From: Candidatus Hatepunaea meridiana
Lineage (GTDB): Bacteria > Electryoneota > AABM5-125-24 > Hatepunaeales > Hatepunaeaceae
Reading direction: 5' to 3'
NCBI GenBank assembly: GCA_030765125.1
Contig: JAVCDD010000358.1
Location: 1 to 47,278, forward strand
DNA length: 47,278 bases
A program made the translations under genes and the position numbers. Positions 15,712 through 44,966 of the stretch are shown piece by piece; position 1 is the stretch's first letter, and the number at the start of each line of letters is the position of its first letter. The notes under the pieces are model-generated. The model was not told the DNA's origin. It worked only from the letters and a program-made list of their open reading frames with translations, and ran no database searches.

Positions 15712-15749
15712 ATTTGAAAGGGAATCATCCAAAATTAACAAAGCTGCCA

Positions 15750-17582
15750 ATGGAACCAGGTGATAAAGGAATACTCAGACGATTCGGAAAATACTTTCGA
15801 TCATATCGAATACTAATCGTTATATCATTGACCGCCGCGGTAATGGTTGCCCTATCAGATACGGCAATTGCTCTGGTAGTAAAACTGATAACCGACCTAT
15901 TCGGTGGTATTACACAAGCAGTATCGTCAGGTAAACCGATTGAAATTCAATTTTCGCTGTATAAGTGGGGTTTCAATATATATGATTTTACCGTCAGTGG
16001 AACGAGTCAGGCAGGTCGAATGCTTTGGATCATTGCACTGGGGACGTTATGCGTTGTGTTAGTGAAAGGAGCTTTTCATTTTCTGAAAGAATATCTGATG
16101 TGGAGTGTGACGCATCGAATTGTAATGCAGTTGAAGCAGGAATTATTCTCACGAGTTGTTCACTTTCCGCTTTCTTTCTTTGATAGAGAAAAGTCCGGTG
16201 ACGTCGTTTCGCGGGTCACTTACGATGTTACACAGATAGAAAACTCGATACGATCCGCCGTTATGTTGGTCAAATCTGTTGTTTACACGTTCATTTTTGT
16301 AACCTTTATGTTCTTGCTGGAATGGTCGTTGACACTCTTCGTCCTTGCGGTATTCCCCGTTTCCGGTATCCTCATAAAGTTGTTTGGCGATCGGATCCGC
16401 GGGATTAGCAGAAAATTATCTCTTAACGTAGCAGACTACACGGCCTTTCTCGCTGAGGCTATCGGTGGAGCTAAAGTTATCAAAGCATTCGGTCGTGAGA
16501 AAACTAAAGAACGCTCCTTTAATAAGAAAGTGCATGAGAATTATCGCTTCAATATGAAGGTTGCCAAGCTTGCGACGTTGCATTCACCGGCACAGGACAT
16601 CTTCTCGTCAATAGGTATGGCTGGCGTGGTGATCTTCTGTGGTTATCGAATTCTATATGGAGGTATGACCTTCGGTGACCTGACAGGCTTTCTCATTTTA
16701 TTGTTCAATGCTTATAAGCCGATTAAGACGCTTGGAGAAGCTAACAATGTACTCCAGAGGGCGCTTGCATCAGGCAGGCAAATATTTGATCTTATTGATC
16801 AACCCGATGAAAGTATGGTCATTGGATCAGGCTCTAAAAAACTATCGGAAGTTAAGGGAAATATTGAGTTTGAAAATGTTGATTTCAGCTATTTAGATGA
16901 TATTCCTGTATTGCAGGATATCAATTTGATAGCTGAACCGGGAGAAACTATCGCTTTAGTAGGTCCTTCCGGAGGCGGAAAATCTACGTTAATAAGCTTA
17001 ATTCCCAGATTTTATCCCTTGCACCAGGGAAAGATTATGCTGGATGGGGTTGACATTGCAGAGCTTGACATAGATCACTTGCGTAGGCAGATAGCCATTG
17101 TACCTCAGGAAACGGTACTATTTTCAGGAACCGTTGAGGAAAACATCCGATTTGGGCAACTGGATGCAAACAATACTGAGATTACTAATGCAGCTAAGTT
17201 GGCAAATGCTCATGATTTCATAGAAAAATTATCAGGTGGATATCAGGCGGAGGTTGGCGAGCGTGGCGTCCAATTATCAGGAGGTCAAAGACAGCGGATT
17301 GCTATTGCAAGGGCGATCCTGCGCGACCCGAAGATTCTTCTGCTCGACGAAGCGACTTCATCTCTTGACAGCGAATCAGAGCATCTGATTCAAGATGCAT
17401 TGGAACGTTTCCGTCGGGACCGCACTACTATTGTCATTGCCCACCGGCTCTCAACTGTTCAATCGGCTGATAGAATTGCAGTTATTGTTGAGGGTAGTTT
17501 AGCTGAGATTGGCTCTCATCAAGAGTTGTATAAAAAGGATGGTATTTACAGAAAGCTCTGTGATCAGCAGTTTGGGGGATGA
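15750..17582 (+). CDS. MsbA-like ABC exporter (permease-ATPase fusion)
   Basis: This is a half-transporter of about 610 residues. The N-terminal membrane domain has about six helices (ILIVISLTAAVMVALSD, MLWIIALGTLCVVLVKG, SVVYTFIFVTFMFLLEW and others). The C-terminal ATPase has Walker A GPSGGGKST (~residue 405), signature LSGGQRQR, Walker B ILLLDEA, a D-loop and the H-loop IAHR. The length and layout fit the MsbA/lipid flippase family (ABCB type), which moves lipid A-like or lipid-linked glycans across the inner membrane. The next gene, a glycosyltransferase, supports a cell-surface glycolipid role. Start is uncertain: the ATG at 15750 is preferred, though a TTG at 15714, immediately after the inverted repeat, is in frame. 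Neither has a clear ribosome-binding site. Confidence 0.9.
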   Translation: MEPGDKGILRRFGKYFRSYRILIVISLTAAVMVALSDTAIALVVKLITDLFGGITQAVSSGKPIEIQFSLYKWGFNIYDFTVSGTSQAGRMLWIIALGTLCVVLVKGAFHFLKEYLMWSVTHRIVMQLKQELFSRVVHFPLSFFDREKSGDVVSRVTYDVTQIENSIRSAVMLVKSVVYTFIFVTFMFLLEWSLTLFVLAVFPVSGILIKLFGDRIRGISRKLSLNVADYTAFLAEAIGGAKVIKAFGREKTKERSFNKKVHENYRFNMKVAKLATLHSPAQDIFSSIGMAGVVIFCGYRILYGGMTFGDLTGFLILLFNAYKPIKTLGEANNVLQRALASGRQIFDLIDQPDESMVIGSGSKKLSEVKGNIEFENVDFSYLDDIPVLQDINLIAEPGETIALVGPSGGGKSTLISLIPRFYPLHQGKIMLDGVDIAELDIDHLRRQIAIVPQETVLFSGTVEENIRFGQLDANNTEITNAAKLANAHDFIEKLSGGYQAEVGERGVQLSGGQRQRIAIARAILRDPKILLLDEATSSLDSESEHLIQDALERFRRDRTTIVIAHRLSTVQSADRIAVIVEGSLAEIGSHQELYKKDGIYRKLCDQQFGG

Positions 17583-33832: not shown

Positions 33833-35452
33833 ATGTATAAAGCCAGAAATCTATTCAGAAGCGCTAAGCAAATGAGATTAGTTTCGGAGAAGGATAAAAC
33901 AACACCGGAACTGCAATCTGATTATGTTTTGATTTACAATGTAAGTTTGAGTGAGCTTCTAATGCTCAATAATCTGATTACCAGCGCTGGATATCGCAGC
34001 ATTGTTGCATCAAGTTTTAAAGATGCTGATGAAAAATGCACAAAAAATCCACCATTTGCAGTTGTAGTAGATTTCTCACGCGAACCTGAACAGGCAGTAA
34101 AATTATTTAATTGTATTCGCAAAAATAAAGTCGCAATCGACACACTGATCTTGTTCTTTTGCGATGATGGTATATTATTAGAGAACTCTCTTGGTTTACA
34201 TGCCAGAGGTTACGAGTACCTTTATAAACCCATCGAGTTAGGACCTTTGAAAATTCGTCTGGAATCCATTCTACAAAAGAAAAATTGGCGTGGAAGCATA
34301 ACTATACCTTCGCGTATCCCAAAGAAGACAATTCCCGAAGAACTTCCTATCTCATTGTCGCCTGATTTGGAACAAATGTTGAAAAATGAGGATAAACCAT
34401 TACCCATCCCAATTCCTAAAATAAAATCATCTATTCCTGTTCTTAAACCAGCAATAACTGAAACAATTATCGAAGATAATAATAAAAGCAAATCCGAGGT
34501 TTCAGAAAATAAATCTATTCATTCACCTGGTAAAAAAAATAAAAATTATTTCTATGATCATGCTGTACTTGTAATTACTGAACAGATTGAAAGAATTAGA
34601 AACGATGAACCTATTAAGCTATTGACTATTAAACAATTATCAAAAGAGCTATCCGATAACATACACACCCACCCGGATCTCGAAGTAAGGGCTTTGAATC
34701 GAAGAGAATTTAATTCCCTGTCAAACCGTATCATTAATATGACTGTCTTTGCAACTCTATTGGGATACAGGATGAAGCTTTCTGAACAGCATCTTCATTT
34801 ACTTACTGCTTCTGCTCTTATTCACGATCTTGGTATGGTGAAGATTCCAGATAGCATCTTGAAAAAAGAGTCCGAATTAAGTAATATAGAATTCAAAGCA
34901 ATCAAGCAACATCCCGATCATACTGTAAAAATAGTAGAGGGTGCTGTTGATTTTGATAATGAAGCGGACAGTTCTATTACAAGAATAGTATATCAGGTTC
35001 ACGAGCGTGAGAAGGGGACCGGATACCCGAAAGGATTAGAATCTGATCAGATTGACCCGCTGGCTAAGATACTCGCAGTTGCTGATGTGTTCGAGGCATT
35101 CAGCCATCCACGTAAATACCGCAAATCGTTCATGGCGTATGAAGCGATTCAAGAGGTAATTAAGCTAAAAGGCAACGAACTTGCCTCAGAAGTGCTAAAG
35201 GCGCTTGTAAATGAGTTATCTATTTTCCCCTTGCATAGTTATGTCCAGCTTAATAATAAACAGATCGGGCAAGTAATTGAGATCAATAAGACACACTCAC
35301 TGCGACCAGTGGTGGAAATAAAATTTGATGAAGCCGGAAAAGAAGTCAAACCTCCATTAAGATTGAACCTTCAAGAAGCACCATTCCTGTTTGTTACAAA
35401 GATATTGCCCCAAAGCAAACTTCCCAAGATAGACGCTAATGGATATGAATGA
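33833..35452 (+). CDS. Pseudo-receiver / degenerate HD-GYP protein
   Basis: The 539-residue product has a receiver-like N-terminus (~30-150). It keeps the strand with Asp (AVVVDFS) and Lys (YLYKP), but the acidic pair at the end of the first strand is missing (VLIYNVS). A Lys/Pro-rich linker (~160-235) leads to an HD-GYP domain (~285-470). There HD is kept (HDLGM, though the usual Lys is Met) and GYP is kept (HEREKGTGYPKGL), but the first metal His of HxxRV is Leu (LSNRI) and the HHE pair is Val-His. It is likely an inactive or altered cyclic-di-GMP-binding regulator of polysaccharide production rather than an ordinary phosphodiesterase (inference). The C-terminal 80 residues resemble a small beta domain. 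Its end overlaps the next gene by 14 bases. Confidence 0.88.
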   Translation: MYKARNLFRSAKQMRLVSEKDKTTPELQSDYVLIYNVSLSELLMLNNLITSAGYRSIVASSFKDADEKCTKNPPFAVVVDFSREPEQAVKLFNCIRKNKVAIDTLILFFCDDGILLENSLGLHARGYEYLYKPIELGPLKIRLESILQKKNWRGSITIPSRIPKKTIPEELPISLSPDLEQMLKNEDKPLPIPIPKIKSSIPVLKPAITETIIEDNNKSKSEVSENKSIHSPGKKNKNYFYDHAVLVITEQIERIRNDEPIKLLTIKQLSKELSDNIHTHPDLEVRALNRREFNSLSNRIINMTVFATLLGYRMKLSEQHLHLLTASALIHDLGMVKIPDSILKKESELSNIEFKAIKQHPDHTVKIVEGAVDFDNEADSSITRIVYQVHEREKGTGYPKGLESDQIDPLAKILAVADVFEAFSHPRKYRKSFMAYEAIQEVIKLKGNELASEVLKALVNELSIFPLHSYVQLNNKQIGQVIEINKTHSLRPVVEIKFDEAGKEVKPPLRLNLQEAPFLFVTKILPQSKLPKIDANGYE

Positions 35453-36677
35453 ACCTCCTGAATTGCGGATTCTGCTTGCGAAATTAAGCGCTGAATTCTG
35501 TAAAGAAGGTGTAGTTTCTGACAATGAAATGAAGGATAGTTTTCTTAGATATAATCCTTCTGAAATTGCTGAGATACTCCTGAATGATGGTCTTTTAGGA
35601 TTTTTATGGAAACCACTCTCAAGCTTGTATGAATTTCCCGCATCACAACGTACGATAATTAAAAACTATTTATTTGATACTTGCAGACGAGAACTACTTG
35701 TTCACAGGCAACTCCCCATGCTTTGGTCATTGTTCAAGGATGAAGGTTTAGACCCGATACTGTTACGCGGTCCATCATGGCAGAGATACTATCCATCCGA
35801 AGTTATCCGTGACCTGTCTGATATTGATTTATTAATACACCCGGATCAGAAGACTAAAATTGATATATTCTTTGAAGCGATGGGTTATAAGAGATCATTT
35901 CATTGTCCCGATGTATGGTTAAAAGATGGTGTAACCCTGGATATCCATACGGATGTAATGGGAATTACCTGGCTGCCGGCATCGGTTTATGCTGGTAATA
36001 TACCCTTACAAGAACTGTTTGATCGAAAAAAAACCATTCAATTTGAGTTTATGACCCGCTGTCAGGGGCGGCGTCTTGACATCAATGCTTTCAACCTCGG
36101 TGGGTTGACAGCAGAGAGTTCTATTTTTCAAGGAGATGAAAAGGAACTCCTGAAGATCAGCGTACTTGAGGAAGCCGACGATCTGATTTGTGCATCTATT
36201 CACTGGGTCAAACACTCATTTAACAGATTGTCCTGGAGCGTTGATCTGTTAATGTTATGCGACCAAGTGAACAAGTTAGACCTATGGGAAGAAGTGACCG
36301 AACGAATAGAGCGCTATAAAGTTGACGGGTTAGTTGGTTTTGGTCTTTTACCTGTTAGGCGTATATTTAATGCTGATATACCGGATAGTGTTATCAGCGG
36401 TAATATGAGATCGAATTCAAGTGTAGTTTCCAGGTGGATTATTGAAACAATTTCAAAAGGCAGACGGTTTGAACCTGCCGGTTATTTACTTTTTGCGAGT
36501 TCTATCGGGAATATATTTAGGAAGTTTCAGTTTTATTTTGAGATCGTTTTCCCTCGACGCAAGGTTCGTCGACGGATGTTCAGAAGGTATCCCGATGCGC
36601 CGAGATGGCTTTTTCCATATTTTCACATCTCAAGAGGCTTGTCAGGGACAATGCGGCTTATCAAGGGGTTGCTTTAA
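35439..36677 (+). CDS. Nucleotidyltransferase family protein (PF14907-like)
   Basis: The ATG at 35439 overlaps the previous gene by 14 bases; an ATG at 35445 is an alternative. The 412-residue product has the minimal nucleotidyltransferase core of the family: DPILLRGPSWQRYYPSEVIRDLSDIDLLIHPDQ (broken by description: a Gly-Pro/Ser turn, then Arg-Asp and the Asp-x-Asp metal pair at DID), and later GVTLDIHTDV with a further Asp. A helical C-terminal half follows. Relatives occur beside PqqD, HPr-kinase-like and B2-type genes in exopolysaccharide loci and in some lasso-peptide clusters, where they modify a peptide or sugar. The substrate here is not known. Its stop codon shares a base with the next gene's ATG (TAATG). 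Confidence 0.85.
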   Translation: MDMNEPPELRILLAKLSAEFCKEGVVSDNEMKDSFLRYNPSEIAEILLNDGLLGFLWKPLSSLYEFPASQRTIIKNYLFDTCRRELLVHRQLPMLWSLFKDEGLDPILLRGPSWQRYYPSEVIRDLSDIDLLIHPDQKTKIDIFFEAMGYKRSFHCPDVWLKDGVTLDIHTDVMGITWLPASVYAGNIPLQELFDRKKTIQFEFMTRCQGRRLDINAFNLGGLTAESSIFQGDEKELLKISVLEEADDLICASIHWVKHSFNRLSWSVDLLMLCDQVNKLDLWEEVTERIERYKVDGLVGFGLLPVRRIFNADIPDSVISGNMRSNSSVVSRWIIETISKGRRFEPAGYLLFASSIGNIFRKFQFYFEIVFPRRKVRRRMFRRYPDAPRWLFPYFHISRGLSGTMRLIKGLL

Positions 36678-37501
36678 TGCCTCGGTCAGATAACAAACTC
36701 TGTATTGCTATTGGACCGATTCACTTAATTATAGAAAGCCCGATAGATTGGGTCATCCGTGAAATAGTGAACAATTATAATCCGTTTCTTTGTCATAGCG
36801 ATTCCGGATTTAAGTTAATAGTTTTACCTAAAGATCGAGGTATTTCTTATAACATATCCGATCTGCAAGTTACATATAAGAATGGATACGTTTTCGCCAG
36901 ACGAAGCGACTTCGATTTGAGTATTAGTATGAATGGTAATTATGCCGAAGGACAAATACTTGAAGGCTCATTACCCGGGCTTGTTACTATGTTGAAATTT
37001 GTCTTTACAGTAACTGCTTTTAAAACCAATGGTCTTTTTCTCCACGCAGGCGCGACTGTTAAAAATCGAAAAGGTTGGGTTTTTCCAGGACATTCAGGCG
37101 CAGGTAAAACAACGTTGGTTAAGAGATTGAATAAGCATAAACTGTTAAATGATGAAACAACACTTGTTATTCAACAAAATAATGGCTGGTATGTTTACTC
37201 AACTCCTTTTAGTGGTGAACTTGCTCAGCATCCGGAACTCGATTCAGCTCCCTTGCATGCGTTGGCTTTCCCTGAAAAAAATAAAGGAATGAAGTTAACA
37301 GGGATTTCACATACTGAAGCAGTTTACAGGATAATTCAGAACGTTATTGGGTGGGGCGGGGAAGATTGGGGTAACTCTATGCTCGATCTGGCAGTTGACT
37401 TATCTAAATCATGTAAGTCTTTTGTTTTATCCTATCCAATTAACAGCGATCCGGATATCCTATTTAAAAAGGTTGACTATGAGAACTATCCAGCGCAATA
37501 A
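36677..37501 (+). CDS. HPr-kinase-like P-loop protein
   Basis: The start is the ATG at 36677, inside taatg at the end of the previous gene, with aagggg about nine bases upstream; the earlier in-frame ATG at 36605 would overlap 73 bases of that gene. The 274-residue product has an N-terminal beta region (~1-105) and an HprK-type kinase core: HAGATVKNRKGWVFPG, P-loop GHSGAGKTT, and the LLNDETTLV segment with Asp-Glu near where HPr kinase has its catalytic Asp. Such HPrK-like proteins include lasso-peptide kinases (PadeK/ThcoK), which phosphorylate a peptide Ser. This context (PqqD, radical SAM, nucleotidyltransferase) makes peptide modification a plausible role. The next gene overlaps its 3' end by 23 bases. 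Confidence 0.85.
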   Translation: MPRSDNKLCIAIGPIHLIIESPIDWVIREIVNNYNPFLCHSDSGFKLIVLPKDRGISYNISDLQVTYKNGYVFARRSDFDLSISMNGNYAEGQILEGSLPGLVTMLKFVFTVTAFKTNGLFLHAGATVKNRKGWVFPGHSGAGKTTLVKRLNKHKLLNDETTLVIQQNNGWYVYSTPFSGELAQHPELDSAPLHALAFPEKNKGMKLTGISHTEAVYRIIQNVIGWGGEDWGNSMLDLAVDLSKSCKSFVLSYPINSDPDILFKKVDYENYPAQ

Positions 37502-37748
37502 CGACGTTGCGTTCAGAATACTTGACGGTGAAGCAGTGTTACTCAATCCTGTTGATAATCAGATACACCTGTTGAATGAAGTAGCGACATTTATCTGGGA
37601 ACTGCTGCCTGAACCCAAGTCTGAAGATGATATTCTATCAGCAATACGTGAAGAATTCGAAGTAGAGTATACACAGGTGCTGTCTGACCTTCAGAAATAT
37701 TCAGATCAACTGCTCGAAAAAGATCTGATTGAAGTTATTGCAAGGTGA
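37479..37748 (+). CDS. PqqD-family peptide-binding (RRE) protein
   Basis: The ATG at 37479 overlaps the kinase gene by 23 bases and is preceded by an aagg motif. The 89-residue product matches PqqD: an N-terminal beta hairpin (VAFRILDGEAVLLNPVDNQIHLLNEVATFIWELL, described piecewise) followed by a winged-helix tail (DDILSAIREEFEVEYTQVLSDLQKY ... LLEKDLIEVI). PqqD proteins bind the leader of a ribosomal precursor peptide and deliver it to a modifying enzyme, typically a radical SAM protein. The radical SAM gene lies just downstream, as in pqqD-pqqE. The 110-base space before that gene contains an inverted repeat. Confidence 0.9.
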   Translation: MRTIQRNNDVAFRILDGEAVLLNPVDNQIHLLNEVATFIWELLPEPKSEDDILSAIREEFEVEYTQVLSDLQKYSDQLLEKDLIEVIAR

Positions 37749-37857: not shown

Positions 37858-38931
37858 ATGAACACTGAACAATGCAACATATCAGTCTATAATGAAATTG
37901 TTGGTCGGGCAATGGAGCTTAAGCATCCGCTTGATGTGATGTGGGAACTTACTTATCGTTGTAACCTTGAATGTAAACATTGTTACATAACACCTGGAAA
38001 TGGCATTGAAATAAGTACAGAGAAAGGCTTTGATCTGCTTCAACAACTTGCAGATGCGGGAGTTTTATGGTTAACTTTTTCAGGTGGCGAACCATTTCTA
38101 CGAGCAGATATTTTCGAACTGTTAGAGCGTGCCCGATCACTGAATTTTGCAGTTATGCTATTCACTAATGGCACACTTATCGGACAAGCGGAAGCGAAAC
38201 GGTTGGCAAGTCTAAAACTTTCCGGTGTTGAAGTGAGCATCTATGGCGCATCACCGGTGATCCACGATGCGTTTACAGGGATTGAAGGTTCATTCGAGAA
38301 GACTATGGCAGGTATTAAATATATGCTGGCGTTAGGAGTACCCGTCACATTGAAAACTTGTATTGTAAGATCAAATATGGAAGATATGACAAAGATGGAA
38401 GAACTGTGTAATAATCTCGGAGTGAGATTCCGTATGACTTCATATCTTGCTCCACAGAATGATGGTGATACGACAAAGGTTGATAAGCATCGTTTAACTG
38501 ATTACCAATTAGAGAAGCTTTATCGGGAAGACGGTTTTTCTGATGATAATGATGAAATAGTATATCCGGATTTACAAATGAACGACCAAAAAGACATTAT
38601 TCCATGCAGCGCCGGTCATATAACCTGTGGAATAACGCCGGATGGTCGTATTCTGCCTTGTCCACAATTTGTAAATGGTGGAGACAGCATATTTGAGAAT
38701 GATTTTCTTTCTATTTGGAGAAACTCTGAATATCTTCAGAAGATCAGGGAAATACGACTTTCCGATGTTGAAATCTGTAACAGGTGCCCAGGACTGAAAT
38801 ATTGCTTTCGCTGTCAGGGCATTGCTCTAATCGAAGATGGTGATCTATTGGGTCCTTCAAGTGAAGCGTGTCGAAACACGCGAATATTTATGAGGTTAAT
38901 AGGTAATGAAGCGCAAGTACCACCCGCCTGA
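37858..38931 (+). CDS. Radical SAM/SPASM peptide-modifying enzyme (PqqE-like)
   Basis: The 357-residue product has the radical SAM cluster motif CNLECKHCY (Cys35, Cys39, Cys42), the GGEPF motif (FSGGEPFLR) and a TIM-barrel core. A C-terminal SPASM domain binds additional iron-sulphur clusters: CSAGHITCGITPDGRILPC, then ICNRCPGLKYCFRC and a final Cys in SSEAC. Family knowledge: SPASM radical SAM proteins, partnered by PqqD-type proteins, form carbon-carbon or thioether bonds or epimerise residues in ribosomal peptides. Here a PqqD gene is immediately upstream and a candidate precursor overlaps its last 26 bases. The ATG at 37858 has a poor ribosome-binding site, and Met18 or Met27 remain possible starts. 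The substrate is not known directly. Confidence 0.93.
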   Translation: MNTEQCNISVYNEIVGRAMELKHPLDVMWELTYRCNLECKHCYITPGNGIEISTEKGFDLLQQLADAGVLWLTFSGGEPFLRADIFELLERARSLNFAVMLFTNGTLIGQAEAKRLASLKLSGVEVSIYGASPVIHDAFTGIEGSFEKTMAGIKYMLALGVPVTLKTCIVRSNMEDMTKMEELCNNLGVRFRMTSYLAPQNDGDTTKVDKHRLTDYQLEKLYREDGFSDDNDEIVYPDLQMNDQKDIIPCSAGHITCGITPDGRILPCPQFVNGGDSIFENDFLSIWRNSEYLQKIREIRLSDVEICNRCPGLKYCFRCQGIALIEDGDLLGPSSEACRNTRIFMRLIGNEAQVPPA

Positions 38932-39085
38932 AATTCGATCTGAAACTGCATTTGAACAAGAAACATTGGTATGTCTTAAAGTTAGACGAGGATGTTCTAG
39001 ACAACTTCCTAGACAACTTGGTCAAATACGGTGCCGTCGCAGGATGATACGATATCGTAGATGCTACGAGAGAACCAGGAGTTAA
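38906..39085 (+). CDS. Candidate RiPP-like precursor peptide (59 aa)
   Basis: The ATG at 38906 lies inside the end of the radical SAM gene in another frame, with gagg ten bases upstream. The stop is at 39083-39085. The N-terminus reads MKRKYHPPEIRSETAFEQ, then ETLVCLK. This resembles leaders of small peptides found beside PqqD/radical SAM pairs (Lys-Tyr-x-x-Pro, Ser-Glu-x-x-Phe-Glu, then Leu-x-Cys); the resemblance is from memory and not verified. The rest is rich in Arg (15 in total) and has Cys23, 30, 43 and 53, with a RQLP/RQLG pair from a 12-base direct repeat. A different frame over the same bases also reads as protein-like (LKLDEDVLDNFLDNLVKYG) and is in phase with the next gene, so the assignment is tentative. 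Confidence 0.45.
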   Translation: MKRKYHPPEIRSETAFEQETLVCLKVRRGCSRQLPRQLGQIRCRRRMIRYRRCYERTRS

Positions 39086-39092
39086 TGGGCTG

Positions 39093-40217
39093 ATGGACAT
39101 CCATTATATTATGCTGGCAGATAAGCGGCGTCTTCAGGCTTATCAGCAAGCGATCAACGCTGTCGTAAAACCAGGCGATATTGTTCTCGACATCGGAACT
39201 GGAACCGGGATACTCGCACTTATGGCAGCTCAAGCAGGAGCCTGCAAGGTATATGGGATAGAGTATGATTCAATGTCTGAAGTTGCAAAGGAAATTGTAG
39301 CTGCTAATGACTACAAAGATGTAATTGAAATCATTTCCGGTGATCTACGGAACATTGAACTACCTTGTAAAGTTGATGTTCTTATCGGTGAGATGTTGGG
39401 CAGTTTTGGAATCGAAGAGAATATTCTGGCGTTATACGATCACGCTTGCAAGCGCTTCCTGAAACCCGACGGTATTGTGATTCCGCAACGATTCTCGCTT
39501 TGGGCAGCGCCGTTTTCATCGCAACGAATCCGTAAGGAACTCAAATTCTGGGAGAAGGTTAACGGGTTTAACTATTTACCGATTCAAAAACGCATACAGC
39601 ATCTCACTAAGATAGATTCCATAAAGCAATCGGCTCTCATTTGTAAACCTGAAATGCTTGGTGAATTTGATCTGAAAGATTTTTCTGGAATGGATATTAA
39701 CGGATGTGTAGGTTTTACCTGCGATAAATCAGCAGTTATAGACGGCTTTTGCGGTTGGTTTGAAGCAGTGTTGTCCGACGGAATTATACTTGACAATAAT
39801 CCTGCCTCACCACCGACACACTGGCGGCAGATGATATTCCCGTTATTACCTTCAGTTCGAGTAAAAGAAGGTGACACGGTAAATCTACGCATCACAAGTA
39901 CGCACTTTGGCGATGAAGTCCATTTGAACTGGTTCACTGAATTTAATCTGTCGGGCAGAAGAGAACAGCGCAAGCAAGCAGCTTTTCTGGGAGTAGATCT
40001 ACCGGGAAAATTTACAAACTGGTTCACACCACCACTTGATTCGAAAAGTAAATTAACCGAATACGGTCAGGAATTATTGGCAGCATTGTCCTCTATTGAA
40101 AAAGGAGCTGAAATATCCAGAATAAAGATGGTGAACGATAACGATGATGAAAACAAGCAGAAAGAACGACTGGCAATGAAGCTGTTGCGTGAAGGATTGA
40201 TTGAGATTGACAAGTAA
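39093..40217 (+). CDS. PRMT-like SAM-dependent methyltransferase
   Basis: The 374-residue product has the Rossmann SAM site VLDIGTGTGILALMA with an acidic strand-2 end (GIEYD), and features specific to protein arginine methyltransferases: a double-E-like loop (IGEMLGSFGIEEN), a beta-barrel domain and a THW loop (PPTHWRQMIFPL). It should transfer methyl groups to a guanidinium or similar nitrogen of a protein or peptide. Bacterial PRMT-like genes are uncommon; here it follows an Arg-rich candidate peptide by seven bases, suggesting that peptide as a possible substrate (inference). The ATG at 39093 has aggag about 12-16 bases upstream. The same frame is open backwards to a TGA at 39045, with protein-like text beyond it, so an interrupted N-terminal extension is possible. 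Confidence 0.82.
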   Translation: MDIHYIMLADKRRLQAYQQAINAVVKPGDIVLDIGTGTGILALMAAQAGACKVYGIEYDSMSEVAKEIVAANDYKDVIEIISGDLRNIELPCKVDVLIGEMLGSFGIEENILALYDHACKRFLKPDGIVIPQRFSLWAAPFSSQRIRKELKFWEKVNGFNYLPIQKRIQHLTKIDSIKQSALICKPEMLGEFDLKDFSGMDINGCVGFTCDKSAVIDGFCGWFEAVLSDGIILDNNPASPPTHWRQMIFPLLPSVRVKEGDTVNLRITSTHFGDEVHLNWFTEFNLSGRREQRKQAAFLGVDLPGKFTNWFTPPLDSKSKLTEYGQELLAALSSIEKGAEISRIKMVNDNDDENKQKERLAMKLLREGLIEIDK

Positions 40218-40220
40218 TTT

Positions 40221-40805
40221 ATGAAACGGCATCAAAAAATTGCGGCATTAGAACTTCTGTATCGGATTATCCAACAACGCGGTTCAGCAATTATCACAAC
40301 TCATGGAAGGAGTATGGATCCGTGGATACCTGATAATAGTCTGGTTAAGATTAAGTCTGTAGATAGCGGATTGAGAACAGGTATGGTGGTGGCGGTTCGT
40401 GATGGTGAGAGGTTGCTCGTTCACCGGATTGTTAAAATTGTCTCTAACAACGGTTTTATTACCAAAGCAGATAATCTTCCTTTCATTGATGGTCTTTGGA
40501 AAAATGACTTTGTTTTAGGCACTGTAGTTTCAGTTGTATCGAATGACGGTGATGAATTACCTTTCCCGCAAGGCGAGTTGTTTACAAAGTTTCTAGCGCG
40601 AATCTCGCTCATTTACGGACGATTATTCTATACGCTCGATGTAATGTTACAATCTATCCTAAGGATTGGGTGTTCGATAATCCACTGTAACGCCGACATT
40701 AATCACTTAAGTTCGCGATTTGAAATATTGTCTGCAATTATTTTTAAAACAGTTCAAGGTTTCATTCGTATCAATTTTCATATAATCAGCAAGTTCAAAA
40801 GGTAA
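40221..40805 (+). CDS. S26/S24-like signal peptidase homologue
   Basis: The 194-residue product has the signal peptidase core: the nucleophile region TTHGRSMDPWIP (Ser-Met with following Pro), a strand LVKIKSVDSGLRTGMVVAV, then LLVHRIVKI where His may be the base, and TKADNLPFIDG corresponding to the conserved K/G-D-N...D region. The His rather than Lys dyad is like archaeal/eukaryotic signal peptidases and S26-like proteins of exopolysaccharide loci. C-terminal residues ~125-180 may form a membrane-associated helix; there is no clear N-terminal anchor. It might cleave a leader or an exported peptide made by this operon (inference). It starts three bases after the methyltransferase and ends five bases before the receiver gene. 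Confidence 0.8.
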   Translation: MKRHQKIAALELLYRIIQQRGSAIITTHGRSMDPWIPDNSLVKIKSVDSGLRTGMVVAVRDGERLLVHRIVKIVSNNGFITKADNLPFIDGLWKNDFVLGTVVSVVSNDGDELPFPQGELFTKFLARISLIYGRLFYTLDVMLQSILRIGCSIIHCNADINHLSSRFEILSAIIFKTVQGFIRINFHIISKFKR

Positions 40806-40810
40806 ACACT

Positions 40811-41212
40811 ATGGCAGAAAAACCACATTCGTTGCAAAAGACCATCCTTATTGTGGATGATGAACCGAGTATCGGTCAATTACTATCAGAGTATCTCGTT
40901 AATTTGGGTTATAGACCTGAGATCGCCAATGATTGCAATGATGTTATCATCTTTTTTGATGAAAAAACACCGGATATAGTATTCCTTGATATTCAACTTC
41001 CCGTAGTAAATGGAGTTACAATACTGAAGTTAATAAAACGTATAGCGCCTGAAGTCGTCGTGGTTATGATGTCTGGGATAGCAACTGAAGATACAGCAAG
41101 GGAGACTTTAAAAATCGGTGCTTTTGATTATATTACAAAACCTTTTGAATTTTCAAGGGTTACAGAGATACTCAGAGCAATCGAACTAACACCGGAAGAA
41201 CATAGATATTGA
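40811..41212 (+). CDS. Stand-alone response regulator receiver
   Basis: The 133-residue product is a single CheY-like domain with the acidic pair in ILIVDDEPS, the phosphoacceptor Asp in IVFLDIQLP, the Ser/Thr switch in VVVMMSGIA and Lys in YITKPFE. There is no output domain. It presumably passes a phosphoryl signal to a partner by protein contact, perhaps the Wzc-like kinase or the pseudo-receiver at 33833. No histidine kinase is in the window. The ATG follows aaaaggtaaacact, with a Shine-Dalgarno-like aagg, and the stop overlaps the next start as TGATG, so translation of the two is coupled. Confidence 0.93.
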   Translation: MAEKPHSLQKTILIVDDEPSIGQLLSEYLVNLGYRPEIANDCNDVIIFFDEKTPDIVFLDIQLPVVNGVTILKLIKRIAPEVVVVMMSGIATEDTARETLKIGAFDYITKPFEFSRVTEILRAIELTPEEHRY

Positions 41213-42630
41213 TGGTTATATATAAACAATGTAAAGTACTTGTAGTATCTGTCCTTATATTCTGTTTTTTGTGGTATGTTACTTCACATACCACATTAAT
41301 TGCAGCACCGCAATCTGCTTCACTTAACAATCTGGCGAAGATTCGTTGTAACCTTTATACTGAAGGTAGTGAAGATGCAAGGATCAGACTGGCTTTTGAT
41401 TTCCAGAATTATTCTGAGAAATTAATATTGAAAGAAGATATTAATAAGGACAAGGAGACAGAGTCCGGTTTTCTTAGACAGTTTATTATTACCTTGGAAA
41501 AAGAACGCGATAAGGATATTTTTAGAGGCGTCCAGATTAAGTATAGTAATGCTGGTGGAAAAATTAAACTGAAGGTAGGTTTTAACCAGATATCTCTATT
41601 AGTTAAAAGAGATTTTGAACTTAAAGCTTCTTCATTTAACTATATAAAGAATAAAAAAGTAGCTTTCATAGACATACCTTACTCGAAACGTTCACAGGAG
41701 GAAATCCCTAAGCAAAAATCAGATAATAGGAAAGATAATAATCCTGATAAAACCAATTTACTCCAACGAATAGAACCGAAAGAGCGAAGCGGGCACTATA
41801 TTTTGGGTCCGAGCGATATACTCGGAATTACAATTTATCTTAGTTGGATGAACGATGCACAACCGGCAAAGATAGAAGAAATACCAATAACTTCCGATGG
41901 TCAGATATTCTTACCTTTCATCGGTTTTATGTATGCAGCGGACTTGACTTGTGAAGCATTAGCATATAAGATAACTGAAGAACTCAAAGAGAGCTATTTA
42001 AATCCTTATGTTACAGTCAAGGTTGTAGAACAACGCAGCAGGACTGTTACAATAATAGGTAAGGATTTCAATGGTGTTTTCCCGATAATGCAAAATGAAC
42101 GTCTATATCATTTAATTGTGAGAAATTCAAATAAAGGTCAATTCCTTAAGAACTATAGAAGGTTTCAAATTACCAGACTGGATGGAAGTAGATTCGAGGT
42201 AGATCTTTCAAAATATATTTCAAAAGGCGACTCACTAAACAATCCTGTTCTCGCAGTTGGAGACCAGATATTTATTCAAACAGACAAGATTCAAGTAAAA
42301 ATATTCGGCGCAGTAAACAGACCAGGAGTATATTCATTGGATTATCCGGCTACTTTAACAACCGGTATTGCCGTTGCCGGAGGATTTGCTAATAATGCAA
42401 AAGTTAATAAAATAACTATTACTCATCTTGATTCATCCGAGCCAAATGTCTATAATTTAGAACGATATATAAAAGAAGGTGATATTTCTGTTAATCCGGA
42501 ACTTCAAGATGGAGATATGATATATATACCAGATAGGTTTGTGATAACGTGGGGAATTGCACGAGATGTGTTGATGAGTATTCATATGGTGCTAACATCA
42601 TATGTTTTAATAATATCATTAAGAGACTGA
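41212..42630 (+). CDS. Wza-like polysaccharide export outer-membrane protein
   Basis: The ATG at 41212 overlaps the receiver's stop; a TTG one codon upstream is not needed. The 472-residue product has an N-terminal hydrophobic export segment (VLVVSVLIFCFLWYVTSH), a beta-rich region of about 140 residues resembling an AMIN-type domain, a Lys-rich linker, and then the PES domain (YILGPSDILGITIYLSW ... ITSDGQIFLPFIG) followed by an SLBB domain (VKIFGAVNRPGVYSLDYP). A C-terminal hydrophobic helix (VLMSIHMVLTSYVLIISL) could span a membrane, as in Wza. It should form the outer-membrane channel for exopolysaccharide. No lipobox Cys is seen; the canonical Wza is a lipoprotein, so anchoring may differ. 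The next gene is the inner-membrane co-polymerase. Confidence 0.9.
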   Translation: MVIYKQCKVLVVSVLIFCFLWYVTSHTTLIAAPQSASLNNLAKIRCNLYTEGSEDARIRLAFDFQNYSEKLILKEDINKDKETESGFLRQFIITLEKERDKDIFRGVQIKYSNAGGKIKLKVGFNQISLLVKRDFELKASSFNYIKNKKVAFIDIPYSKRSQEEIPKQKSDNRKDNNPDKTNLLQRIEPKERSGHYILGPSDILGITIYLSWMNDAQPAKIEEIPITSDGQIFLPFIGFMYAADLTCEALAYKITEELKESYLNPYVTVKVVEQRSRTVTIIGKDFNGVFPIMQNERLYHLIVRNSNKGQFLKNYRRFQITRLDGSRFEVDLSKYISKGDSLNNPVLAVGDQIFIQTDKIQVKIFGAVNRPGVYSLDYPATLTTGIAVAGGFANNAKVNKITITHLDSSEPNVYNLERYIKEGDISVNPELQDGDMIYIPDRFVITWGIARDVLMSIHMVLTSYVLIISLRD

Positions 42631-42695
42631 TAAAAAGAGTGCGTATATTTTACATTCAATTTCTTATTAATTAAAGAATCGAGCAGGTAATAAAT

Positions 42696-44966
42696 ATGGA
42701 AGAATCCACATTTACAATACAAGATTATTCTCGTATTCTCAGACGTCGCAAATATACAATTCTATGGATAACTGTAATAGTAGGTCTGATAGTATATATA
42801 TTGTTTCCAAAATCCAAAGCAGTTTATCATGCCAGTGCTTCAGTTGAGTTAATTCAGAAAAACACGGTAGGGGGGCTTTTATTGTCAGATGTATTGTATT
42901 TCGGTGAGGGTGATAATATTGCAACCCAGGCAGCAATTATTACCAGTCAGCGTATAGTATTCCTCGCTGCACAGCGAATTGGGGAGATTGAAAAAAGTAT
43001 CGCCTATGAAGATTTGAGTATTGTCTATGAAGATCCTAACTCTCGTCCTGAGTACTTCAAGAAGATGAATGAATTACAGAGGAGTGTTACATCGAAGCCT
43101 AAGGAGCTAAAACGATCAAATATGATTACCGATATAATTGACGTTACAGTAACCACGAACAATCCCAGCCTTTCAATAAAATTTGTTAATGCAGTTGTTG
43201 ATGTTTACAGAGCGGAGAGTTTGAACCAACGAAAACGCGAGATGGTAGATACAAAGAGCTTTATTGAAAAGCAGTTAGCAGAATATACTAACAATCTAAA
43301 AAGATCAGAAGAGCAGTTAATGAAATATGTTAAAAGTACACTTCCTTTTGTTGAACTTGAGGGTGGTGATATATTGGATATCCAGATAGCTTATGGCGGA
43401 AAAAAAGAACAAATAATGAATTTAGAAAAATTACAGAGAAAGCTTAAACAGCGAATACAACTGGATGATAATGAAAAAAGTTCTGAAGATTGGATATCAT
43501 TGGCGATTAATGAACAATTCGGTGAAAATGTTTTTCCTAATGTTATTAAACTGGTGAATCAGAAAACAGAATTGCTTGGATATGTAAAAGAAGAAGCTCC
43601 TCAAATACGGGAAATTAATCGAAAAATAAAAGAAGGAATTTTATCGGTATTGCCGAGTATAGAGAACAGACTGGATAATCTGGAAAAACAGAAAAACGCT
43701 ACATTAGCCCTTCTGGAACGGAATATTGAATATGATCGTCTGAATCGGGAAGTGAGATTAAACGAGAGTATTGTTGAGGATCTATCATCAAGCCTGCAGG
43801 ATGCTCTTATTCAAGGAGCTAAAGATTTTGAAGCTGTTCGGATTCTTGAATTTGCTACTTCTGCTGCCTCTGTTGCTGGACTTGCTCATACTCACCGTTT
43901 GTTTTTATCTATGATTATCGGACTGGTTGCCAGTATATTTATCGTTATACTTTTTGACACCTTTGACACATCCATCAAGGTTATTGAAGATGTGGAAAGT
44001 TTTCTAAACTTAGCTGTGTTAAGTGTCATTCCGCGCATTTCTACAAAGAAGTACGCTACTAATGGTATTAAATCAAAAGTAACCTCAACAGGCGGTGGGT
44101 ACTCAAAATCCTTAGGGTTGATAACACATTTCTGGCCCAAGTCTCCTTTTGCAGAAGCGTATAGAACGTTAAGAACCAATATCGATGTTGCTCGGTCTTC
44201 TGAAGAGAGCACTGTGATCATGTTTACGAGTTCAACAATGAGAGAAGGCAAAACCACGACGATTTCAAATTTAGCAATTTCTATGGCACAGAAGGGAAAT
44301 CGAGTACTGCTTATCGGATGTAATCTTCGTCGACCAAGTCTCTATCGAGTATTTGATCTTGAAAAAAAACCAGGTGTAACAGAAATCATCATGGGAACAG
44401 TTAAATGGCAGGATACAGTCAAGAATATTACAGATATGTTTGTTGGAACGGCGGTTGGAATAGATGATGTATTGTTAAGCCCCGGACTTGATAACCTTCA
44501 TATTATCACTGCGGGAGCTTCATCGGCAAATCCCTCTGAGCAGTTATCAGAGGATTCATTCCGGGAGTTCATAAAAGAAGTTCGTAAAGAATATGATATC
44601 ATCTTAATCGACTCGCCTCCAACACTTCCGGTAACAGATTCCGCGATAATTGCACCGAATTGTGATTTTGTAGTAATTGTATATCAAATTGGGAGAGTAG
44701 GCAGGGATATGTTGAGTAGAACCAAAGCACATCTCGAAAGCGTAAATGCCAAAATACTTGGCGTTGTTTTGAACGATATTAAAGCCGAATTACATGATTC
44801 CCAGTATAGTTCCTCGTACACATTAACATACTATGGTGAGGATGACCAGAAAAAAACAAAGAGAGGTATGAAGTCCTTATCGAATATGGATGCTGATAAT
44901 GGTTCAAACGGTGGTTTTATGAACAAATCATTGTCATATTTGAAACGTAAAATAAGTAGTAATTAA
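42696..44966 (+). CDS. Wzc-like polysaccharide co-polymerase / tyrosine kinase, atypical Walker A'
   Basis: The 756-residue product has an N-terminal Wzz domain with two membrane helices (TILWITVIVGLIVYILFP ~25-42; LFLSMIIGLVASIFIVILF ~405-424), a long coiled-coil periplasmic part and a C-terminal BY-kinase domain. Walker A is FTSSTMREGKTTT; Walker B is ILIDSPPTLPVTDS; the Tyr-rich tail (YSSSYTLTYYGED) is near the end. The Walker A' position, normally Ile-Asp-x-Asp-x-Arg, reads LLIGCNLRRP, so both Asp are replaced (Gly and Asn). It should control chain length and export of the polysaccharide with the Wza-like protein; kinase activity may be lost or altered. The 65-base gap from the previous gene is AT-rich with no terminator seen. 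Confidence 0.9.
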   Translation: MEESTFTIQDYSRILRRRKYTILWITVIVGLIVYILFPKSKAVYHASASVELIQKNTVGGLLLSDVLYFGEGDNIATQAAIITSQRIVFLAAQRIGEIEKSIAYEDLSIVYEDPNSRPEYFKKMNELQRSVTSKPKELKRSNMITDIIDVTVTTNNPSLSIKFVNAVVDVYRAESLNQRKREMVDTKSFIEKQLAEYTNNLKRSEEQLMKYVKSTLPFVELEGGDILDIQIAYGGKKEQIMNLEKLQRKLKQRIQLDDNEKSSEDWISLAINEQFGENVFPNVIKLVNQKTELLGYVKEEAPQIREINRKIKEGILSVLPSIENRLDNLEKQKNATLALLERNIEYDRLNREVRLNESIVEDLSSSLQDALIQGAKDFEAVRILEFATSAASVAGLAHTHRLFLSMIIGLVASIFIVILFDTFDTSIKVIEDVESFLNLAVLSVIPRISTKKYATNGIKSKVTSTGGGYSKSLGLITHFWPKSPFAEAYRTLRTNIDVARSSEESTVIMFTSSTMREGKTTTISNLAISMAQKGNRVLLIGCNLRRPSLYRVFDLEKKPGVTEIIMGTVKWQDTVKNITDMFVGTAVGIDDVLLSPGLDNLHIITAGASSANPSEQLSEDSFREFIKEVRKEYDIILIDSPPTLPVTDSAIIAPNCDFVVIVYQIGRVGRDMLSRTKAHLESVNAKILGVVLNDIKAELHDSQYSSSYTLTYYGEDDQKKTKRGMKSLSNMDADNGSNGGFMNKSLSYLKRKISSN

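Follow-up and report, generated by a model that had tools for sequence, protein, structure and literature searches.

This locus raises the question of whether an unannotated frame of 59 codons, which starts inside the 3' end of a radical SAM (rSAM)/SPASM gene, encodes the precursor of a modified peptide (RiPP). The DNA analyzed was a stretch of 47,278 nucleotides from Candidatus Hatepunaea meridiana (contig JAVCDD010000358.1, forward strand), here called the window, and coordinates are those of the window unless a locus is named. The original prediction had read the frame as a precursor with a leader recognized by PqqD-type proteins, four Cys and many Arg, and had held that it would define a new modified peptide tied to polysaccharide export.

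Conservation of the precursor frame

The frame was found where it had been predicted, at 38906-39085 on the + strand, with an ATG start and 59 codons. Its first codons share 26 bases with the 3' end of the rSAM gene (37858-38931), and the encoded peptide, MKRKYHPPEIRSETAFEQETLVCLKVRRGCSRQLPRQLGQIRCRRRMIRYRRCYERTRS, contains 4 Cys and 15 Arg. A lone overlapping frame proves nothing, and the same locus was therefore sought in other genomes. The contig search, with the rSAM alignment and narrow patterns, returned the G008 contig only (same family, other genus), and viral contigs searched for rSAM gave distant rSAMs only. By peptide-profile search across 39 genomes of the phylum, a direct orthologue was found in G000 and G008 only. 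The operon is present in G008 too, where the rSAM protein is 65% identical to that of the window, and at the orthologous locus (L002/L031/L066) a 59-codon ORF has the same position, frame and 26-base overlap. The peptide at this position, MKRKYHPPEIKSEIAFEQEMLACLKVNQNCFQELPKKPWQVKCLLDLLRQANCYERTRS, aligned with that of the window without gaps over 59 residues (59% identity), and Cys23, 30, 43 and 53 and the terminal CYERTRS are common to both.

Selection was analyzed on these two direct orthologues. The rSAM reading frame also constrains codons 1-9; across codons 10-59, beyond the overlap, window and G008 differ at 67 bases but share 26/50 residues. When these substitutions were placed at random, a mean of 12.9 identical residues remained and 26 was never reached in 20,000 trials (P < 5e-5), and the frame stayed open in only 2.4% of placements. 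pN/pS was 0.36 in the precursor frame; the other two frames had 1.03 and 1.00. Constraint was strongest in codons 10-26 (13/17 identical) and codons 53-59 (7/7, with 6/6 base changes silent). Codons 27-52 were near neutral (6/26 identical, P = 0.07), the exceptions being Cys30, Cys43, Leu34, Pro35 and Gln40; retention of Cys30, Cys43 and Cys53 had P = 0.0017. As read from the two sequences, this constraint profile is what a leader followed by a variable core with fixed Cys would be expected to show.

A spurious ORF that owes its conservation to the rSAM frame it overlaps, or to an alternative frame (...LKLDEDVLDNFLDNLVKYGAVAG), was suggested by the position of codons 1-9 within the overlap and by the protein-like appearance of the alternative frame in the window. 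It was rejected on the frame-specific pN/pS, the random-placement test and the in-frame stops that interrupt the alternative frame in G008, as selection is present beyond the overlap and the other frames are unconstrained; the chance of a spurious ORF is now negligible. The checks proposed beforehand (conservation in related genomes, comparison with the overlapping alternative frame and a codon-substitution test) thus all came down on the side of the precursor frame, and it is practically certain that 38906-39085 is a genuine gene. Inside the gene, a 12-base tandem duplication (CTAGACAACTTC/G, 11/12 identical) at 38997-39020 reads SRQL-PRQL in the peptide frame.

Genes of the cassette

The gene order in the window is nucleotidyltransferase, HprK-like kinase, PqqD-type RiPP recognition element (RRE), rSAM/SPASM maturase, peptide, PRMT-like methyltransferase and S26 peptidase, all on the + strand. 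The nucleotidyltransferase (NTP_transf_5, 35439-36677) was assigned by PF14907 (8.7e-24). For the HprK-like kinase (36605-37501), the best NCBIfam match was HprK_rel_A (TIGR04352, 3.1e-8) at 33.1 bits, below the curated cut-off of 200; its H147, Walker A (162-170) and D183 are retained in nearly all homologues. The RRE (37479-37748) was assigned by PF05402 (1.6e-16), and the maturase (37858-38931) by PF04055 (5.9e-21) and PF13186 (2.1e-7), with the rSAM motif CxxxCxxC at 35/39/42 and SPASM Cys at 250, 268, 307, 310, 316, 319 and 338. The PRMT-like gene (39093-40217; PRMT_C, 2.1e-18) starts 7 bases past the peptide stop. The S26 SpI-like (SipW/archaeal-type) peptidase, a predicted leader peptidase (40221-40805), had TIGR02228 (sigpep_I_arch, 1.4e-6) as its best NCBIfam match, below the curated cut-off; of its catalytic residues, S31 is retained in 22, H68 in 24 and D84 in 23 of the 25 homologues aligned. 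At 40811-44966 follow a receiver domain, a polysaccharide export protein (PF02563, 3.3e-14) and a chain-length regulator-like protein, called Wzc-type by sequence appearance only. Within 39075-39095, the final peptide codons (AGGAGT) could also serve the PRMT gene as its ribosome-binding site.

Pfam and NCBIfam scans of the cassette genes gave no ABC exporter or MsbA-like transporter, and no macrolactam synthetase (C) or B2 peptidase. An ORF at 15714-17582, some 18 kb upstream from the cassette, resembles an MsbA-type ABC exporter, as judged by appearance. The G008 cassette has the window order minus the PRMT gene, and the order matches as far as the export gene. The L120 cassette (G075) comprises RRE, rSAM, peptide, HprK, PRMT, S26 and nucleotidyltransferase.

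A peptide family beside rSAM/SPASM genes

Loci with a homologous rSAM gene, about 40 in all, were mapped in genomes from many different families. The cassette recurs in these loci, and at many of them a small ORF with YxxPx[ILV] adjoins the rSAM gene. Peptides were picked by the YxxP pattern and then curated by eye, giving a set of 29 (26 once close copies were removed). All 29 start the motif, a known RRE motif, with Y or W (+0) and carry P at +3 and one of I/L/V at +5, but its conservation is circular because it was the selection criterion. The Cys register and the C-terminal Ser played no part in selection. Cys occurred at +18 to +20 after the motif Tyr in 24/26 peptides, and at exactly +18 or +20 in 22/26, where 20,000 shuffles gave 3.6 on average and 12 at most. 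FET, FEN or FEQ was found at the position of the window FEQ in G008 and five further loci (L098, L101, L103, L131, L135). Ser was the last residue of 16/22 HprK-linked peptides, compared with 7.5% of the long ORFs at these loci (P = 5e-14, a value that assumes independent peptides, whose independence is not full). Ser also ended 6/6 peptides with no HprK in the region (L098, L101, L113, L119, L124, L135), and is therefore a family trait and not a kinase-specific marker.

In the window peptide, the predicted RRE-binding motif YHPPEI (residues 5-10, YxxPx[I/L/V]) lies at 38918-38935, FEQ (residues 16-18) at 38951-38959, Cys23 (+18 from the motif Tyr) at 38972-38974, Cys30 at 38993-38995, Cys43 at 39032-39034 and CYERTRS (residues 53-59) at 39062-39082. 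On these sequence features, the window peptide is a member of a family adjoining homologous rSAM/SPASM genes across many bacterial groups. A YxxP...SExxFE...LxC pattern with a variable core, in line with the KYxxP...SExxFE...LxC pattern that had been put forward for searching, recurs beside PqqD/SPASM genes, and with the conserved frame it bears out the reading as a RiPP precursor, very probably one recognized by the RRE. Neither the window precursor nor its relatives had a Pfam or NCBIfam match above cut-off, and the precursors had no match among solved structures.

Conservation of the four Cys and of both termini between the two orthologues would also suit a small protein that binds metal through these Cys and serves as an rSAM subunit or regulator, not itself a modified product. 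The YxxP leader with its RRE, the variable family core and the SpI-like peptidase all suit a RiPP precursor, and the metal-binding reading is rated improbable.

Separately from the window, locus L130 (G277:C34) has two paralogous precursor peptides in one cassette, ending CQVRGT and CMVRGT. YxxP peptides also adjoin rSAM genes at L013 (2785-2925) and L015 (minus strand, 1074-1223), in two unrelated genomes; their cores are near-identical, with the ends CRQCSGCHGCR and CRQCSSCHGCR.

Comparison with known systems

Clusters for LPP (linear polyphosphorylated peptides) encode an RRE, an HprK-like kinase, an SpI-like leader peptidase, an NTP transferase and an MsbA-like exporter, and are located in capsular polysaccharide loci (PMC13381572). 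The window shares the first four genes, a YxxP leader with F-E-T/Q and the polysaccharide-locus setting. For the discrete window RRE, the closest solved chains were the lasso RRE TbiB1 (5v1u) and LppB (9x8z), the latter bound to its leader (PMC13381572). Its alignment with LppB was ungapped, and window N33 and D70 coincide with LppB N33 and D70, which hold the Pro kink and the Tyr of the leader (PMC13381572); D is at position 70 in 38/40 RREs of rSAM cassettes. Retention of these YxxP-binding residues agrees with the leader having been read as one for PqqD-type proteins.

Against the LPP leader consensus YxxPxVLxHQxIxFETxxS, the window has YxxPxI and FEQ, but the spacing to F is 11 and not 13, HQ is absent and Cys stands for Ser at +18. 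The LPP kinase targets core Ser3, and this phosphoserine lies 18 residues past the motif Tyr (Y-16 to S3) (PMC13381572); in the rSAM family, Cys occupies this register. The window further differs from LPP in its rSAM/SPASM and PRMT genes and in having no adjacent identified MsbA-like exporter, and the LPP product is linear with no cyclizing enzyme, whereas the window cassette has an rSAM/SPASM gene. Of the new modified peptide that had been proposed, the class of modified-peptide precursor stands; judged by its genes, the system is only partly new, since it has the same core as LPP RiPPs. The proposed tie to polysaccharide export has gene position as its basis, matched by LPP clusters in capsule loci, and extends no further than position.

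For lasso peptides, C-terminal Ser phosphorylation by an HPr-kinase homologue is described for paeninodin, and in pseudomycoidin a nucleotidyltransferase adds a hexose to the C-terminal Ser phosphate (PMC8498205). A discrete lasso-type RRE, an HPr-kinase homologue and a nucleotidyltransferase are also present at the window, which differs in having rSAM in place of the macrolactam synthetase/B2 peptidase and in a motif that begins with Y and not W. PqqD/PqqE and SkfB-type systems likewise pair a PqqD-type RRE with a SPASM rSAM enzyme, and SkfB and PqqE were the solved chains closest to the window rSAM; the window precursor and partner enzymes are unlike theirs, and the PQQ equivalogs were missed (PqqE 126.5 bits, cut-off 381; PqqD 15.2 bits, cut-off 46).

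Proposed biosynthesis

Gene and class are well supported, and each chemistry is one that we infer. The frame probably encodes the precursor of an LPP-like system with an added rSAM/SPASM maturase, in which the assembly line, as predicted from its genes, would join LPP-type parts with a radical enzyme and, unusually, a PRMT-like enzyme. The RRE would clamp YHPPEI and present the peptide to the enzymes. The family Cys sits at the LPP phosphoserine register, so the rSAM enzyme is expected to act there, and the kinase on the C-terminal Ser. The rSAM enzyme would modify the core, at Cys23 in the fixed register and perhaps also at Cys30/43/53, with thioether cross-links as the most likely outcome; action on Cys is favored, with appreciable room for doubt. 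The HprK-like kinase would phosphorylate Ser59, as expected by analogy with paeninodin, although a C-terminal Ser target is preferred only by a little, and the nucleotidyltransferase may then decorate the Ser59 phosphate. The LPP SpI-like peptidase cleaves after F-E-T and requires the RRE (PMC13381572), and by this analogy window cleavage was placed near the junction of FEQ and ET, where removal of the leader would give a 41-residue product; cleavage near FEQ is reasonably likely. The PRMT-like enzyme may methylate core Arg, which is unusually numerous in the window peptide. Evidence against this model is that the core center is weakly conserved between the two direct orthologues, the only ones found. 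Further points against it are that C-terminal Ser does not track HprK, that the G008 cassette lacks PRMT, that no exporter was identified beside the cassette, and that the HprK_rel_A and sigpep_I_arch matches fall under their curated cut-offs.

The enzymes might instead belong to different pathways, the peptide being a real RRE-guided rSAM product of the lasso, PQQ or sactipeptide kind and HprK, S26, nucleotidyltransferase and PRMT serving the polysaccharide system or another substrate. The six rSAM-peptide loci where the region read shows no HprK (L098, L101, L113, L119, L124, L135) are consistent with such a division, as are the PRMT homologues in the phylum of G284, which are mostly outside cassettes. 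However, rSAM, RRE, HprK and S26 occur together in many genomes and in varied orders, mostly with no EPS genes detected, and the same four enzymes work on one peptide in LPP. Division among pathways is considered unlikely, and the LPP-like system acting on a single precursor is preferred.

These cassettes matter for annotation and for the reach of known chemistry. A candidate precursor is supplied for orphan rSAM/RRE/HprK/S26 cassettes of many bacterial groups, with a rule for finding precursor genes missed by annotation (YxxPx[ILV], Cys at +18 to +20, often a C-terminal Ser). LPPs have been reported as limited to Bacillota (PMC13381572), and LPP-type enzymology would be widened to rSAM-containing clusters. 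The phylum of the window, represented by only 39 genomes in the set searched, is very unlikely to be Bacillota.

PRMT-like enzyme and arginine content

The PRMT-like protein, a predicted methyltransferase, matched true PRMTs (yeast HMT1 structure, 4e-37). It resembles type I PRMTs (yeast HMT1, human PRMT1/6) in its SAM motif, PRMT_C domain, intact double-E loop (E100/E109) and THW loop (242-244), and differs in being bacterial and adjoining a RiPP precursor. The double-E loop is intact in the rSAM-linked PRMTs examined (window, L120, L168, L169, L229) and in L162, with THW, or QHW/QSW in L168/L169, where read. It is degenerate in HprK-linked PRMTs without rSAM (L156, L160, L163, L165, L166, L206, L239, L259, L260, L261). 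In the phyla of G075, G246 and G251, the PRMT searches extended to only two or three genomes apiece.

The window peptide has 15 Arg vs. 4 in its PRMT-less G008 orthologue. At L162 (G251:C34, minus strand, 1626-2286), a pair of neighboring YxxP peptides, each with a long tail of RG/RGG-type repeats, lies upstream of RRE, HprK and PRMT genes, and RG repeats are a typical PRMT substrate composition. PRMT and Arg content were less closely linked than had been hoped: the window and L162 peptides are rich in Arg, but this does not hold for the peptides at L120, L168 and L169, which are also PRMT-linked. That Arg residues of the window peptide are methylated is a tentative proposal, somewhat on the doubtful side. 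A widespread RiPP class that combines a YxxP precursor with rSAM/SPASM and an HprK-type C-terminal Ser kinase, and in some members with an active core-Arg PRMT, is more speculative still. If true, a protein-arginine methyltransferase would be serving as a RiPP tailoring enzyme. Arginine methylation of a peptide natural product from bacteria is raised here as a possibility, and a text search of the paper collection used found no description of it.

Gly- or His-rich peptides were also seen beside HprK and PRMT-like genes whose double-E loop is lost, at L156 (784-954) and L163 (7795-9756, both in PRMT-strand coordinates). Their N-terminus reads [KR]R[ED][FL][LI]KK, followed by a hydrophobic and then a Pro-containing stretch, and they are possibly a separate precursor class.
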